64,000 bases of DNA from Salinisphaera sp. T31B1 (GTDB lineage: Bacteria > Pseudomonadota > Gammaproteobacteria > Nevskiales > Salinisphaeraceae), in assembly GCF_040361275.1 (NCBI RefSeq), contig NZ_APNH01000003.1, positions 124,001-188,000 of the forward strand, read 5' to 3'. The notes beneath the pieces are model-generated. The model did no database searches. It was given only the letters and a program-made list of their open reading frames with translations, and was not told where the DNA came from. This document shows, piece after piece, positions 59,104 to 64,000 of this stretch (positions within the stretch are counted from its first letter, which is position 1; every line of letters starts with the position of its first letter). A program made the translations under genes and the position numbers.

Positions 59104-59209
59104 GGTCGCCGGCGAGACCCGATGCTCGCGCTTTCGCGAGCGCGCGCGGGTCGTGATCCTGCTAGACCGCTGCGGCGGACGAAGCCGACAAACGCATGAG
59201 AGTGAATTG

Positions 59210-60568
59210 ATGCACGTACATATTCTCGGTATCGGCGGTACGTTCATGGCCGGCGTTGCCTTGCTGGCGCGTGCCGCTGGCCATCGCGTCACCGGCTCGG
59301 ATGCGGGCGTCTATCCGCCGATGAGCACCCAGCTCGCCGAGGCCGGTATCGAGGTGATGGAAGGCTATTCCCCCGAGCATCTGGTTCCGGCGCCCGACCA
59401 GGTGATCGTCGGCAACGCGATGACACGGGGCAACCCGGCCGTCGAGCATGTCCTGGACACCGGGTTGCACTATGTTTCCGGGCCGCAGTGGCTGGCCGAG
59501 CAGGTGCTGGCCGATCGGTGGGTTCTGGCCGTGGCCGGCACGCACGGCAAGACCACCACCTCGAGCATGCTTGCGCATATTCTCAGCCACGCCGGTATGG
59601 CGCCGGGTTATCTCATCGGCGGTATCGCCGCGGATCTGGGCCAGTCGGCGTCGCTCGGTGGCAGCGATTTTTTCGTTGTCGAGGCCGACGAATACGACAC
59701 CGCCTTTTTCGACAAGCGCTCCAAGTTCGTCCATTACCGTCCGCGTACGCTGATTCTCAATAACCTGGAGTTCGATCACGCGGATATCTTCGACGACCTC
59801 GAGGCCATCAAGCGTCAGTTTCATCATCTGGTGCGGACGGTTCCGGCAAGCGGCCAGATCGTCTGTCATGCCGACGATGCGGCCCTGAACGATGTGTTGA
59901 GACGTGGCTGCTGGACGCCGACGGTATTCTTCGACGGCCCGGCGGCCGCCTGGCAGGCGCGGCCGATCGCCGCCGATTGCAGCCGATTCGACGTACTTCG
60001 GGACGGCCAGGTCGTCGGCGAGCTCGCCTGGCGCATGACCGGCCGACACAACCTGGCCAACGCGCTGGCCGCGCTGGCCGCTGCACGTCATGTCGGTATC
60101 ACCGCCGAGGTCGCGCTGGAAGCGCTGGCCGGTTTCACGGGCGTCAAACGCCGGATGGAGCTGCGCGGCACGCCCGGCGGCGTGTCTGTTTACGACGATT
60201 TCGCCCACCACCCAACCGCGATCCACAGTACCCTGGCAGGTCTGAAAGCCGGTGAAGCCGACGCCTCGGGCCGCATTCTGGCGGTATTCGAGCCGCGCTC
60301 GAATACCATGCGGCGGGGCGTGCACGCCGACACGCTTGCGGCCAGCTTTGCCGATGCCGACCGGGTTTTTGTCTATGACGCCGAGCTCGACTGGGACGCC
60401 GGCGTGGTGTTCTCGGCCTTGGGCGAGCGATGCAGTCGGCATGACGAGCTGGGCGATCTCGTGGCTGCGGTCGCGGCCTTTGCGCGATCCGGCGATCGAA
60501 TCGTGGTGATGAGCAATGGCGGCTTCGGTGGCGTGCACGAGCGATTGCTCGCAGCACTGTCCGACTAG
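59210..60568 (+). CDS. mpl: UDP-N-acetylmuramate:L-Ala-gamma-D-Glu-meso-DAP ligase
   Basis: A 452-residue Mur-ligase-family enzyme that reattaches recycled murein tripeptide to UDP-MurNAc. The N-terminal UDP-binding Rossmann motif GIGGTFMAGVALLARAAGH, the ATP site GTHGKTTTSSML (about 109-120), the DEYDTAFFDKRSKF segment typical of Mpl, NNLEFDHADIF, and the C-terminal DDFAHHPTAI and EPRSNTMRRGVH motifs are all present. DDFAHHP and EPRSNTM separate Mpl from MurC. Length matches the E. coli enzyme. ATG 59210 follows the short gap after the membrane protein gene. Cytoplasmic. Confidence 0.95.
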   Translation: MHVHILGIGGTFMAGVALLARAAGHRVTGSDAGVYPPMSTQLAEAGIEVMEGYSPEHLVPAPDQVIVGNAMTRGNPAVEHVLDTGLHYVSGPQWLAEQVLADRWVLAVAGTHGKTTTSSMLAHILSHAGMAPGYLIGGIAADLGQSASLGGSDFFVVEADEYDTAFFDKRSKFVHYRPRTLILNNLEFDHADIFDDLEAIKRQFHHLVRTVPASGQIVCHADDAALNDVLRRGCWTPTVFFDGPAAAWQARPIAADCSRFDVLRDGQVVGELAWRMTGRHNLANALAALAAARHVGITAEVALEALAGFTGVKRRMELRGTPGGVSVYDDFAHHPTAIHSTLAGLKAGEADASGRILAVFEPRSNTMRRGVHADTLAASFADADRVFVYDAELDWDAGVVFSALGERCSRHDELGDLVAAVAAFARSGDRIVVMSNGGFGGVHERLLAALSD

Positions 60569-60686
60569 CCGCGCAGGCTGGCGGGAATTCGCCGTGGGCG
60601 AAACGGATCGCCGGCGCCGTCGGCATGTACGGTAAGTCTGGCCTTGCTGGCCCAGGCTCGACCCGGGCATGTCGCCGTGAAACGAC

Positions 60687-60713
60687 AAAAAAAAGACCGC
60701 CGTAGCGGTCTTT
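60687..60713 (-). terminator. Leftward intrinsic terminator with UACG tetraloop
   Basis: AAAGACCGC (60692-60700) and GCGGTCTTT (60705-60713) form a perfect 9-bp stem. On the minus strand the loop is TACG closed by C-G, a UNCG-type stable tetraloop, and the stem runs into eight T (complement of the A tract 60687-60694). It therefore terminates leftward transcripts, six bases past the three-copy array. On the plus strand only three T follow, so it is a weaker terminator for mpl. Confidence 0.75.
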
Positions 60714-60718
60714 GAAGG

Positions 60719-60789
60719 TTCGCACTGACCGGTCCGTACCACGTCGAGGCACGAGGGGGGACCGGGAGACGCCGGGCCGGTCAGGCGAA
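60719..60789. repeat. Tandem stem-core element, copy 1
   Basis: Outer stem TTCGC (60719-60723) with GCGAA (60785-60789); inner stem GACCGGTCCG (60727-60736) with CGGGCCGGTC (60773-60782), ten pairs including one G-T. The conserved core spans 60738-60770 and contains CGAGGCACGAGGGGGG and ACCGGGAGAC. It has T at the sixth-to-seventh core base where the other copies have C. Confidence 0.75.
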
Positions 60790-60819
60790 AACCACGAGTG
60801 AATCAACTCGCCGTGAAAA

Positions 60820-60893
60820 TTTCGCTGGAGCCGAGTCGTACCACGCCGAGGCACGAGGGGGGACCGGGGAGACGACGACCCGACCCAGCGAAA
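60820..60893. repeat. Tandem stem-core element, copy 2
   Basis: Outer stem TTTCGCTGG (60820-60828) with CCAGCGAAA (60885-60893); inner stem CGAGTCGT (60832-60839) with ACGACCCG (60875-60882), with a single A-C mismatch. The core is at 60840-60873, one G longer than copy 1 (GGGG before AGAC). Unit spacing from copy 1 is 101 bases. Confidence 0.75.
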
Positions 60894-60923
60894 GAGTGGA
60901 CAGCCATGACTGCCGCTTGGAAA

Positions 60924-60997
60924 TTTCGCTCGAATCGAGCCGCACCACGCCGAGGCACGAGGGGGGGACCGGGAGACAACGGCCCGATCGAGCGAAA
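60924..60997. repeat. Tandem stem-core element, copy 3
   Basis: Outer stem TTTCGCTCGA (60924-60933) with TCGAGCGAAA (60988-60997), ten perfect pairs; inner stem TCGAGCCG (60935-60942) with CGGCCCGA (60980-60987), with an A-C mismatch at the same place as copy 2. The core is at 60944-60977 with seven G instead of six. Spacing from copy 2 is 104 bases. Confidence 0.75.
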
Positions 60998-61003
60998 CAG
61001 GGT

Positions 61004-61019
61004 GGCGGGCGGACCCGCC
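61004..61019. other. 6-bp hairpin between the EF-hand stop and the array
   Basis: GGCGGG (61004-61009) pairs with CCCGCC (61014-61019) around CGGA, 18 bases beyond the EF-hand stop on the minus strand. No T tract follows, so read-through into the three-copy array is expected. Confidence 0.4.
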
Positions 61020-61036
61020 GAATTCGTATCAGATTG

Positions 61037-61333
61037 TTAGGTGTCCGAATCGCCGGACTGTTCGATCTCCTGTGTCTTCTTCATTGCCTTCATGTAGGCG
61101 CCGAACTCCTGCTTTGTCACCTTGCCGTCGCCGTTCGCGTCCATAGCATCGAACTTGTCTTCCCATGGCGTGGCGGCGACCTCTTCCGGTGTGAGTGCAC
61201 CATCGGCGTTCGCATCCATCGTGGCCCACGACGCCGAGGCCTGGTTGGCGACATCGGTATCGCTGGCGGCGAACGCGCCGCTCATCGGAAGGCTCAGCGC
61301 CATGCCTGCGATCACTGCATACCGTCTTCTCAT
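61037..61333 (-). CDS. Exported EF-hand protein
   Basis: A 98-residue secreted or periplasmic protein: signal peptide (YAVIAGMALSLPMSGAFAA) then two canonical EF-hand loops, DANADGALTPEE (40-51) and DANGDGKVTKQE (65-76), each with Asp at positions 1 and 5, Asn at 3 and Glu at 12, so both should bind calcium. A short charged tail ends the protein. Bacterial proteins of this kind are usually calcium buffers or sensors, function unknown. The gene is flanked by an unusual three-copy RNA-like array on its 3' side. AT-rich sequence 61385-61435 upstream may hold its promoter, but no clear hexamer pair was found. Confidence 0.82.
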   Translation of the reverse strand: MRRRYAVIAGMALSLPMSGAFAASDTDVANQASASWATMDANADGALTPEEVAATPWEDKFDAMDANGDGKVTKQEFGAYMKAMKKTQEIEQSGDSDT

Positions 61334-61620
61334 GCGTCGAACGAACCGGCTAAAGCGTATCTTGCGTCGAACTAGAGCAACCCGCGTGCCAGGTTGATAA
61401 AAATTATGTAAATCAGCAGGTTAAGAAGATACTAGCAGCGGGTTTGGCATCGCTTGAGACGTTCGGCCCTGAGCAGCCGACGGAAGCGTTGCCTGTAGAC
61501 GACACATACCGACGACAGCTGCCAAGTGGTTAACGCAACGACAAAAAATATGTCGCCTATCAGCGACACCCGGAGGGTTTGGACGGTCTTCGCACGTCGC
61601 CGATGAGCAACACCGACGAA

Positions 61621-62982
61621 TCAGCCCTTGTAGAGCGCGGGGTCGATCTCGTGTCGATTGAGCAGCTTGTAGAACTCGGTGCGATTGCGCTTGGCCAGGC
61701 GTGCGCTACGTGCCACGTTGCCATCGGCGATACGCAGCAGCTGGATCAGATAATCGCGCACGAACGCATCCCTGGCTTCGGCCAGCGGCTTGAGGCTCTG
61801 GGCACGTTCACGGCGGCCGGCCTGCCCAGCCAAGGCTTTTTCGACTGCCTGCCGGGAAATGATGTGGCCGCGGGTCAGTGCCACGTTCTGTTCGACCACG
61901 TTGGATAGCTGGCGAATATTGCCCGGCCAGTCGTGGGCGCACAGCATCTCCATCGCCTCCGGCGCATAGACCTTGGTACGCCGGCCGTTGCGGCGGGCGA
62001 TGGTCTCCAGGAAGTGGCGCGCCAGCGGTGCGATGTCCTCCGGGCGCTCGCGCAGGCAGGGCAGCCCCAGCGTGACGACAGCCAGCCGGTAGTAGAGATC
62101 TTCACGGAACTGTTCGTTCTCGATCGCGGTGCCCAGGTTGCGATGGGTCGCCGAGATGACACGGACATCCACTGGCAACGCCCGGGCCGACCCCACGGGA
62201 CGAACTTCGCGCTCCTGGAGAACCCGCAGCAGCTTGACCTGGAGTGCCAGCGGCATGTCGCCAATTTCGTCGAGAAAGATCGTGCCGCCTTCGGCGCTGC
62301 GGAACAGCCCTTGCTGGGCGTGCTTGGCATCGGTGAATGCGCCTTTCTCGTGGCCGAACAGTTCGGATTCGAGCAGCTGCTCGGGCATGGCACCACAGTT
62401 GATGGCCACGAACGGCGCAGCGCGCCGCGGACTGGCGTCATGGAGCGCGCGCGCGAGCACTTCCTTGCCGGTACCGGACTCGCCGGTCACCAGTACGCTG
62501 GTATCGCTGTCGGCCACCAGGCGCGCTTCCTCGAGCAGCCGCTGCATGACCGGAGACCGCGTGACGATGCGGTCGTGCCAGACCTCGCGCCAGTGGTTGC
62601 CGGCCATGCCGGTCTGGCCTAGCGCCTGGTCGATCCGCTCCAGCAGAACATCCTTGTCGACCGGTTTCGACAGGAAATCCAGCGCACCGCGCTGGGTGGC
62701 GGTCACGGCCTCGGGAATCGTGCCGTGGGCGGTCAAAAGGATGACTGGCAGCGTCGGATACTTGTCGGTCAGCCGTTCCAGCAGGGCGATACCGTCCATC
62801 CCGTCCATGCGCAGATCGGTAATCACGCAGTCCGCGCTGAATTCGTCGAGCCGGTGCAGGGCGGCCTGACCGCTGTCGGCGGTTTCCACCCGATGGCCGG
62901 CGCCCTCGATACGAAGCGCGAGCAGACGGCGCAGACTCGGGTCGTCGTCGACCAGCAGGATATGGCCTATTCGTTTGCTCAT
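61621..62982 (-). CDS. Sigma-54-dependent response regulator, GlrR/QseF-like
   Basis: A 453-residue NtrC-class activator: receiver domain (about 5-120; acidic DDD at 12-14, phospho-acceptor D56 in VITDLRMDG, Lys in LSKPVD), AAA+ domain (about 140-370; Walker A GESGTGKE, Walker B FLDEIGD, R-finger region FREDLYYRL) and a C-terminal Fis-type helix-turn-helix (GNVARSARLAKRNRTEFYKLL). The sigma-54 contact loop, normally GAFTGA, reads GAFTDA. Operon order kinase - lipoprotein - regulator matches glrK-qseG-glrR. The ATG overlaps the stop of the lipoprotein gene (CCATGAGC). Confidence 0.92.
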   Translation of the reverse strand: MSKRIGHILLVDDDPSLRRLLALRIEGAGHRVETADSGQAALHRLDEFSADCVITDLRMDGMDGIALLERLTDKYPTLPVILLTAHGTIPEAVTATQRGALDFLSKPVDKDVLLERIDQALGQTGMAGNHWREVWHDRIVTRSPVMQRLLEEARLVADSDTSVLVTGESGTGKEVLARALHDASPRRAAPFVAINCGAMPEQLLESELFGHEKGAFTDAKHAQQGLFRSAEGGTIFLDEIGDMPLALQVKLLRVLQEREVRPVGSARALPVDVRVISATHRNLGTAIENEQFREDLYYRLAVVTLGLPCLRERPEDIAPLARHFLETIARRNGRRTKVYAPEAMEMLCAHDWPGNIRQLSNVVEQNVALTRGHIISRQAVEKALAGQAGRRERAQSLKPLAEARDAFVRDYLIQLLRIADGNVARSARLAKRNRTEFYKLLNRHEIDPALYKG

Positions 62983-63623
62983 GGTCTGACGTCGCCCAGC
63001 CGTTCTTCGAGGTTGGCCAGTTCACGCAGCTTGCGGTGCGCTTCGTCGAGTTCGGCCTGCAGCCGTGCGATATGTGCCTGCTGCGCCTCAAGAGACGCCG
63101 TGTCGCCCGCGCTGGGCTCGGGCGATGGGTCCATGCCCGGCACGTCGTCCCGGGCCTCGCGTGGTGCGGTGTCGGAAGAAGTATCGGGCTTGGTCAGCTG
63201 GGTGTAGAGCCGCGCGTAGTCGGTTAGATACTGGCGTGCGGCCGGGCTCCACCTCGCGTCGTCGGCCTCGAGCGCGCGCTGGGCGTAGCGGGCCGCCTCG
63301 TCGGGCGTGTAGCGCCGCTGACCGGGCGTACCGTAGGCCAGCGCGAGATTGGCGTAGCTGTAGGCACCGGGCGTGTCCTGCGCAGCCTTGCGGGCCGCCA
63401 CGACCGCGTCCGCCCGTTGTTGCGGGGTGGCCGCGTGCAGTTCGTGGGCGAAGTTCAGCAGGGCGACGGCCGGGTCGCTCGGCGCGATGATCTGCGCGGC
63501 GACGCCACTCTGGCGCGACGGTGTCTGACGCGGCGTTTCATGCACACAGCCGGCGAGCAGGCACAGACCCAGCCCCAGCAGCCCGATCTGCGACAAAGAG
63601 TGTACCGGGACCCTACAGCGCAT
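62979..63623 (-). CDS. QseG/YfhG-like lipoprotein
   Basis: A 214-residue lipoprotein: signal with lipobox LLAGC (Cys about residue 23), an alpha-helical body (FAHELHAATPQQRADAVVAARKA, YSYANLALAYGTPG) resembling tetratricopeptide-like helices, and a C-terminal coiled coil (about 175-210, AQQAHIARLQAELDEAHRKLREL). Its position between a sensor kinase and a GlrR-like regulator is that of QseG, an outer-membrane lipoprotein that modulates the kinase. ATG 63623 overlaps the kinase stop; its own stop overlaps the regulator start. Sequence similarity to QseG is inferred from context more than motif. Confidence 0.72.
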   Translation of the reverse strand: MRCRVPVHSLSQIGLLGLGLCLLAGCVHETPRQTPSRQSGVAAQIIAPSDPAVALLNFAHELHAATPQQRADAVVAARKAAQDTPGAYSYANLALAYGTPGQRRYTPDEAARYAQRALEADDARWSPAARQYLTDYARLYTQLTKPDTSSDTAPREARDDVPGMDPSPEPSAGDTASLEAQQAHIARLQAELDEAHRKLRELANLEERLGDVRP

Positions 63624-64000
63624 GACGGTCCGGAATCTGCACGGTGAACAGCGCGCCGCCGCCGGGCGACTCATCGACACGGATGCTGCCGCCGTGGGCT
63701 TCCACGCACTCACGCACCACCGACAGCCCGATGCCCGTGCCACGCACGCCGCCGCTGGCCACGCGCTGACTGTCGCGGCTCTGGTAGAAGGCATCGAAGA
63801 TGGCGGCGCGTTCGTCGGCTGCCACGCCCGGGCCCTGGTCGGCCACGCGCACGCTCGTTGCCTGGTCGAGCCGACTGGCGTCCAGCGTGATGATGCCGCC
63901 CGCTGGCGAGAACTTCACCGCGTTGGCAAGCAGATTGTCGATGATCAGATGCATACGGTCCCGATCAGCGGTGATCGCGAATGCCTTGCCGGGCGTCACG
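63613..64000 (-). CDS. Sensor histidine kinase, C-terminal fragment (GlrK/QseE-like)
   Basis: The gene enters from the right edge. The visible 129 codons encode a HATPase_c domain: N box NLLANAVKFSP, G1 box DQGPGV, F box IFDAFYQS, G2 box GTGIGLSVVRE, and a short tail ending PDRHAL. The H box, dimerisation helices, HAMP and sensor domains lie outside the window. It overlaps the lipoprotein gene by 11 bases and would phosphorylate the GlrR-like regulator. Confidence 0.88.
   Translation of the reverse strand, partial: VTPGKAFAITADRDRMHLIIDNLLANAVKFSPAGGIITLDASRLDQATSVRVADQGPGVAADERAAIFDAFYQSRDSQRVASGGVRGTGIGLSVVRECVEAHGGSIRVDESPGGGALFTVQIPDRHAL

Follow-up and report, generated by a model that had tools for sequence, protein, structure and literature searches.

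The window, a 64,000-nt stretch of the genome of Salinisphaera sp. T31B1 (genus Salinisphaera, order Salinisphaerales, class Gammaproteobacteria), contained an array of three hairpins of 76–77 nt each at positions 60716–60998, and these were almost certainly repeated hairpins of one real, conserved RNA. The locus was best explained by a multi-hairpin decoy RNA that would be driven by GlrR and sigma54 and would fulfil a GlmY-like role that arose by convergence, and a probability of about 0.6 was given to this statement as a whole. The structure and strand of the RNA, the terminator, the promoter, and the GlrR-type boxes were read from the DNA, while activation by GlrR was carried over from the E. 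coli system.

Unit u1 (60922–60998, minus strand, 77 nt) was the 5'-most hairpin of the RNA and was assigned to repeat family D1, with a loop carrying a CGGUYCCCCC-UCGUGCC core. Units u2 (60818–60894) and u3 (60716–60791) followed on the same strand. The three units scored 91.8, 93.1, and 83.3 bits, respectively, in a cmsearch with model R1, which itself included each of them. The units were separated by small variable hairpins, which were recognized by reading the minus strand. One of these (61004–61019) was located 5' of u1 in a 42-nt spacer with a minimum free energy of −12.7 kcal/mol, and the others were located between u1 and u2 (60899–60914, spacer −6.9 kcal/mol) and between u2 and u3 (60795–60810, spacer −9.7 kcal/mol), both with approximate ends.

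When up to three mismatches were allowed, a 22-nt pattern of the core matched exactly the three units of the window, with 0.00 matches expected by chance, which bore out the near-identical core described in the initial annotation. The three units and cores were also found where that annotation had placed them, but the cores were spaced by 102 and 104 nt and not by 101 and 104 nt. Over the whole 4.36-Mb genome, the three units of the array were the only matches to a 21-nt pattern of the core at up to three mismatches, and the reversed control of this pattern gave one match in the same genome. The arms of each copy folded as had been described. Shuffle z-scores for the minus strand were −3.2, −3.2, and −3.6, compared with −3.1, −1.9, and −2.4 for the plus strand.

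When 38 units were aligned by plain MAFFT and scored over 19 stem pairs and three inner pairs, both-side changes were observed in 10 of the 22 pairs (a number reached by 38 of 500 shuffles), and all ten belonged to the stem. The both-side changes amounted to 47 cells, compared with 20.7 in shuffles (reached by 0/500), and the covariation score was equalled by none of the 500 shuffles. In the alignment fitted to the model, which covered 39 units of 15 genomes and is biased towards structure, both-side changes were present in 11 of 19 pairs (1/500 shuffles) and in 60 cells versus 22.3 (0/500 shuffles), and 91.7% of the cells were paired. When the partner columns of this alignment were shifted by 1–3 positions, pairing fell to 22–56%. 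The covariation of the stems, which had been proposed from the three copies of the window, was present in the units of the relatives in both alignments.

The stem cells of 38 distinct units, read on the minus strand, held 82 GU or UG pairs versus 5 AC or CA pairs. The minus strand was therefore taken as the RNA strand, and an RNA from the plus strand was ruled out by the same asymmetry. The conserved A–C mismatch that had been noted between the arms was indeed present, but on the minus strand it was a G–U wobble pair. A G-quadruplex had also been considered for the G runs of the core; the loop of the minus-strand RNA is C-rich, so a quadruplex is irrelevant to it. The covariance model gave weak matches on the opposite strand in some arrays and in a genome from another genus of the family (G014), of up to 25.8 and 29.3 bits, as is expected of hairpins.

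The loop was conserved far above the stems. Its C-G-G-U, four C's of the C run, and U-C-G-U were identical in 39/39 units, and each letter of the G-C-C-U-C-G after U-C-G-U was kept in at least 38 of the 39. Two possible inner helices of the loop (columns 25–28/55–58 and 35–37/50–52) were compatible with the alignment, with almost no covariation.

No match at the gathering score was obtained with Rfam 15 in the window or in the loci of the 14 relatives, and the best E value over positions 60560–61120 of the window was 1.1. This search agreed with the initial annotation, in which no Rfam-type family had been recognized, and its description of a structured RNA with a fixed core, covarying stems, and tandem copies was upheld by the alignments and by the lack of an Rfam match. 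Judged by its covarying hairpins and the empty Rfam search, the array RNA looks like an undescribed RNA. Among the literature titles collected on GlmY, GlmZ, GlrR, and RapZ, on Salinisphaera small RNA, and on tandem sRNAs, a set covering few subscription papers, none named the array RNA.

On the minus strand, the locus was ordered as part of a probable glrK, a probable qseG, glrR, the promoter, an EF-hand gene, the three hairpins, and a terminator. The glrR (qseF) gene (61621–62982, minus strand) encoded a sigma54-dependent response regulator for which GlrR was the best NCBIfam model, with 604 bits against 424 for the next model and below the curated cut-off of 763. Over an alignment of 452 positions, the product shared 56% identity with E. 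coli GlrR. The probable qseG (62979–63794, minus strand) had no NCBIfam match and was assigned solely from its location, flanked by glrR and by a histidine kinase, the C-terminal part of which (63613–63999, minus strand; HATPase_c, E 5.7e-27) was taken as the probable glrK. The mpl gene for the murein peptide ligase (59153–60568, plus strand; TIGR01081, 667 bits, above the cut-off) converged on the array.

An intrinsic terminator with a poly-U end (60692–60713, minus strand) followed the last unit. By the criteria used here, such a terminator was present after the last unit in 14/14 Salinisphaera genomes and absent between units. The initial annotation had suggested a riboswitch, and a metabolite-binding aptamer array that terminates or senses in cis would share the nearly invariant loop and the covarying stem. 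The array did not lie upstream of a gene on the same strand, however; in 14/14 genomes it was preceded by a sigma54 promoter that had GlrR-type boxes, and it was followed by its terminator and then, in the window, by the converging mpl, with no regulated gene downstream. Rfam gave no riboswitch match either, and an aptamer array was considered very improbable.

The EF-hand gene (61037–61333, minus strand) encoded a protein of 98 residues (Pfam PF13202, E 1.2e-10). A recognizable EF-hand ORF was located between the promoter and the array in 9/14 genomes, and the array lay 3' of it on the same presumed transcript, as it would if the hairpins were a cis-acting 3'UTR element that stabilizes or controls the EF-hand mRNA. 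The other five genomes lacked a recognizable ORF but kept the promoter, the array, and the terminator, which counts against such an element and left it improbable. Because these five genomes retained the promoter and the array, the array and not the EF-hand protein was regarded as the constant product of the locus. In G013, what looks by eye like the remnant of a decayed EF-hand gene lay upstream of the array. In three stretches without the EF-hand gene (L056, L062, and L060), only about 150 nt separated the promoter from the first core, and the array would then form a stand-alone RNA of about 340 nt.

The sigma54 promoter of the window, TGGCACG-N4-TTGC (61377–61391, minus strand), matched 11/11 consensus letters. 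A sigma54 element with 10–11 of the 11 letters was located upstream of the array in all 14 Salinisphaera genomes, 150–428 nt before the first core, and in 13 of them the glrR stop codon preceded the element by 211–277 nt. The exception was G007, where no glrR end was found in the 0.36 kb of contig before the promoter, a length that would show the stop at its usual distance. This contig (L061:1–180) may be misassembled or rearranged near the promoter.

A perfect GlrR-type box, TGTC-N10-GACA (61551–61568, minus strand), preceded the promoter element of the window by 177 nt. Two degenerate boxes on the same strand, at about −221 (61595–61612) and −113 (61487–61504), failed the pattern TGT-N12-ACA. 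In the genus, full boxes were located at −216 to −223 in 9/14 genomes, at −175 to −178 in 10/14, and at −112 or −113 in 3/14, and G007 had a stray TGT-N12-ACA box at −54. All three positions were full in G013 only, compared with one perfect and two degenerate boxes in the window. At least one TGT-N12-ACA box was present within 300 nt upstream of the sigma54 element in 14/14 genomes, whereas 0.02–0.08 were expected from mononucleotide shuffles, and some of the Salinisphaera boxes were near-copies of the E. coli glmY boxes. Control of the array RNA by GlrR and sigma54 is very probable.

In E. coli K-12, the sigma54 element of glmY matched 9/11 letters at −27 from the start, and the boxes were located at −230, −197, and −134 from the start, that is, at −203, −170, and −107 from the sigma54 element. 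QseF/GlrR is reported to bind three upstream TGTN12ACA sites and to trigger the sigma54 promoter of glmY, and the stimulus of GlrK/GlrR (QseE/QseF) is there called unknown (PMC6075780). The array RNA shared with GlmY a sigma54 promoter, upstream GlrR-type boxes at nearly equal spacing, a position adjoining glrK-qseG-glrR, and several stem-loops with a terminator. However, the array followed glrR (13/14 genomes), whereas E. coli glmY lies immediately before glrK. The Salinisphaera array also differed from GlmY in consisting of two to five repeated units with one repeated C-rich loop and in its probable co-transcription with the EF-hand gene in 9/14 genomes.

The GlmY model RF00128 gave no match above its cut-off in the 14 genomes, with weak matches in three (best E 0.19–0.34), and the GlmZ model RF00083 likewise gave none, with weak matches in two (E 0.21–0.31). 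The E. coli controls were above the cut-off with both models. The array RNA appears to occupy the regulatory slot of GlmY with an RNA that is, as far as these comparisons go, unrelated in sequence. The resemblance to GlmZ consisted of an envelope-linked neighbourhood and a loose parallel to paralogous stem-loop pairs, whereas the loop of the array had no complementarity to glmS above that of shuffles.

CsrB/RsmZ and CrcZ are sponges that offer multiple sites to a protein. The array resembled these RNAs in its several hairpins with one repeated motif, but the GGA of the Csr/Rsm system occurred in 0/39 Salinisphaera loops, and a Csr/Rsm sponge RNA was ruled out on this ground. The AbcR1/2 and Neisseria sibling sRNAs are likewise tandem related RNAs. 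The Salinisphaera array differed from them in having no internal terminators, so a single RNA carrying repeated units is expected.

In response to a signal related to the envelope, GlrK/GlrR would, together with sigma54, switch on the array RNA. The transcript would consist of the EF-hand mRNA and the array in nine species and of the array only in five. Each hairpin would then show one C-rich loop, and the two to five copies would together titrate a single partner that is most likely a protein. This titration is suggested by the anatomy of the array, in which one loop is presented repeatedly to one partner. In the regulatory slot of GlmY, the array RNA would probably have come to play a role like that of GlmY by convergence. 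Taken by itself, action as a protein decoy was held at slightly less than even odds. Protein binding is the preferred though tentative reading.

The main rival is an antisense RNA, that is, a base-pairing sRNA under GlrR/sigma54 control in which the C-rich loop pairs with G-rich translation starts and the copies raise the dose. Antisense RNAs are known to use C-rich single-stranded loops, and the conservation of the loop far above the stems and the poly-U end of the terminator would suit such an RNA. The exact complement of a loop 11-mer was found 11 times outside the arrays of the 14 genomes, compared with 3 times for the reversed control. However, when all 11 sites were read, none was shared except between G003 and G004, two sister genomes with 94% identity over these stretches, and a long conserved 11-mer target was rejected.

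The leaders of glmS (13 genomes) and mpl (12/14 genomes) also paired with the loop no better than with mononucleotide-shuffled loops. In tests made with the loop only, at least 48% of the shuffled loops did as well with the glmS leader in every genome, and all 13 glmS leaders were weaker than the shuffle mean. For the mpl leaders, at least 32% of the shuffled loops did as well in every genome. The glmS set left out G007, in which glmS was split over contigs, and the mpl set left out G001 and G010, in which no start of mpl was found. Both genes were set aside as loop-pairing targets, and a base-pairing sRNA was judged somewhat unlikely.

RapZ was considered as a candidate protein partner. It was encoded in 17/17 genomes of the family. 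In 11/14 Salinisphaera genomes its gene and the array shared a contig and were 9–11 kb apart, and in 3/14 the gene was on another contig. The genes adjoining it in G000 and G010 were recognized by eye and are presumably rpoN, hpf, and ptsN. Residues Lys170, Arg184, Arg196, Arg238, and Lys251 of RapZ and the pocket were kept in 14/14 Salinisphaera genomes. In contrast, no basic residue was present at the positions of Lys194, Lys203, and Arg211, and Phe208 was replaced by His; the basic tail was also absent, the last 19 residues holding 2–4 Lys or Arg residues, compared with 8 in E. coli. Eight basic residues of RapZ are named as contacting GlmZ, and the RapZ tetramer is reported to bind two GlmZ stem-loops (PMC9841335). 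RNA binding by RapZ has been tied to its basic tail (PMC5737377), and the RNA-binding tail has been described as restricted to Enterobacteriaceae having GlmY/GlmZ (PMC7073468). Every Salinisphaera array had at least two hairpins, a minimum that fits a RapZ tetramer holding two GlmZ stem-loops and proves nothing. Binding of the array RNA by RapZ would be possible but is not supported by the sequence of the protein, and RapZ is an unlikely partner.

The array was found in 14/14 Salinisphaera genomes, with 2–5 copies each and 38 units in all (3, 2, 2, 3, 3, 3, 2, 5, 2, 4, 2, 2, 3, and 2 per genome). A pattern scan of named genomes gave 16 stretches, 12 of which had at least two matches, and 10 of these 12 were in Salinisphaera records. 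The array-bearing named members of the genus were S. orenii, S. japonica, S. shabanensis, S. halophila, and S. hydrothermalis, along with strains and MAGs. The array was also present in records titled 'Lysobacterales' MAG and 'Endozoicomonas sp. G2_2', the latter of which is probably misnamed. The remaining 4 of the 16 stretches (L071, L073, L079, and L083) each held one match, came from unrelated bins, and were put down to chance, with covariance-model scores of at most 22.9 bits.

Outside the genus, the core pattern matched none of the three genomes from other genera of the family, and the covariance model recovered one unit at 44 bits in one of them (G014). An order-wide search with this model matched 15/85 genomes, namely the 14 Salinisphaera genomes and G014, with none of the 68 genomes from other families of the order passing the strict filters. 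In the class sample, 3/369 genomes matched under strict filters, all three Salinisphaera; the filters of the order and class searches were stricter, and divergent relatives may be missed by them. The unit of G014 (L114:7594–7664, minus strand) lay between a probable qseG and mpl, with no glrR at that place, and the best GlrR match of this genome was on a different contig. By eye, a GlrR-type box and a sigma54-like site were seen downstream of the unit, that is, the unit lies upstream of the site.

The inverted arms and tandem copies would also suit a DNA-level or mobile element, such as a REP-like repeat or a transposon end, and a terminal repeat of this kind had been named beforehand as a finding that would overturn the RNA reading. 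Dispersed copies of the REP or transposon type were looked for and none was found in the T31B1 genome, in which the array was a single locus. The array adjoined glrR in 13/14 genomes and showed the wobble-pair asymmetry between strands, and searches of phages, plasmids, and viral contigs gave no match. All of these observations argue against a mobile element, which was regarded as extremely improbable.

The copy number varied from 2 to 5 while the loop was almost fixed and the stems drifted. In a tree of the units, the u1 copies of seven two-unit genomes clustered together, as did the u2 copies, with supports of 94/95 and 92/96 that were both just below the strong-support mark of the program. 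Strong support was obtained on only 4 of the 32 inner branches of this tree. In G007 and G009, near-identical extra copies adjoined older ones.

For 15 genomes from outside the genus, the best GlrR match was scanned together with its 1.5-kb flanks. Boxes and a promoter followed the best GlrR match in 2/15 genomes, G018 from another family (L168) and G075 (L173), and the trait may be traceable through these two further genomes of the order. Passages of PMC7073468 and another source assign GlmY/GlmZ and the RNA-binding tail of RapZ to Enterobacteriaceae and treat the original role of RapZ as speculative. One scenario is that the GlrK/GlrR–sigma54 circuit predates GlmY and that Salinisphaera combines a closely similar promoter layout with an unrelated RNA of repeated C-loop hairpins. 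This RNA would sequester, as a multivalent decoy, some envelope-control protein that binds RNA (RapZ or another), and the regulator would have retained an RNA as its output, the RNA having been replaced or independently invented. This scenario is tentative, with the odds leaning against it. A promoter of the GlrR/sigma54 type before an unrelated multi-hairpin RNA would mean that the RNA output of GlrK/GlrR is not an enteric invention, or that it arose twice. In the array, a defined RNA with a nearly invariant loop is at hand, for which a partner can be sought.

In L168 (2847–3255), two perfect GlrR-type boxes and a sigma54 promoter with 11/11 consensus letters directly followed the best GlrR match of G018. 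The promoter was followed by a long hairpin, with z-scores of −4.85 for 106 nt and −2.27 for 236 nt, and the tip of the hairpin read UCGUGCC, seven letters of the Salinisphaera core, with GUGCC paired in the predicted fold. Model R2 gave this hairpin only 13.4 bits; it is perhaps a distant relative of the array or, perhaps, a second GlrR-driven RNA. In L173 (reverse strand, from about 1520 down to 180), the layout was followed by a gene for a small secreted peptide, with no RNA array. The genes after the peptide, assigned by eye, are presumably BON-domain-like and CsbD-like genes of the envelope-stress type.
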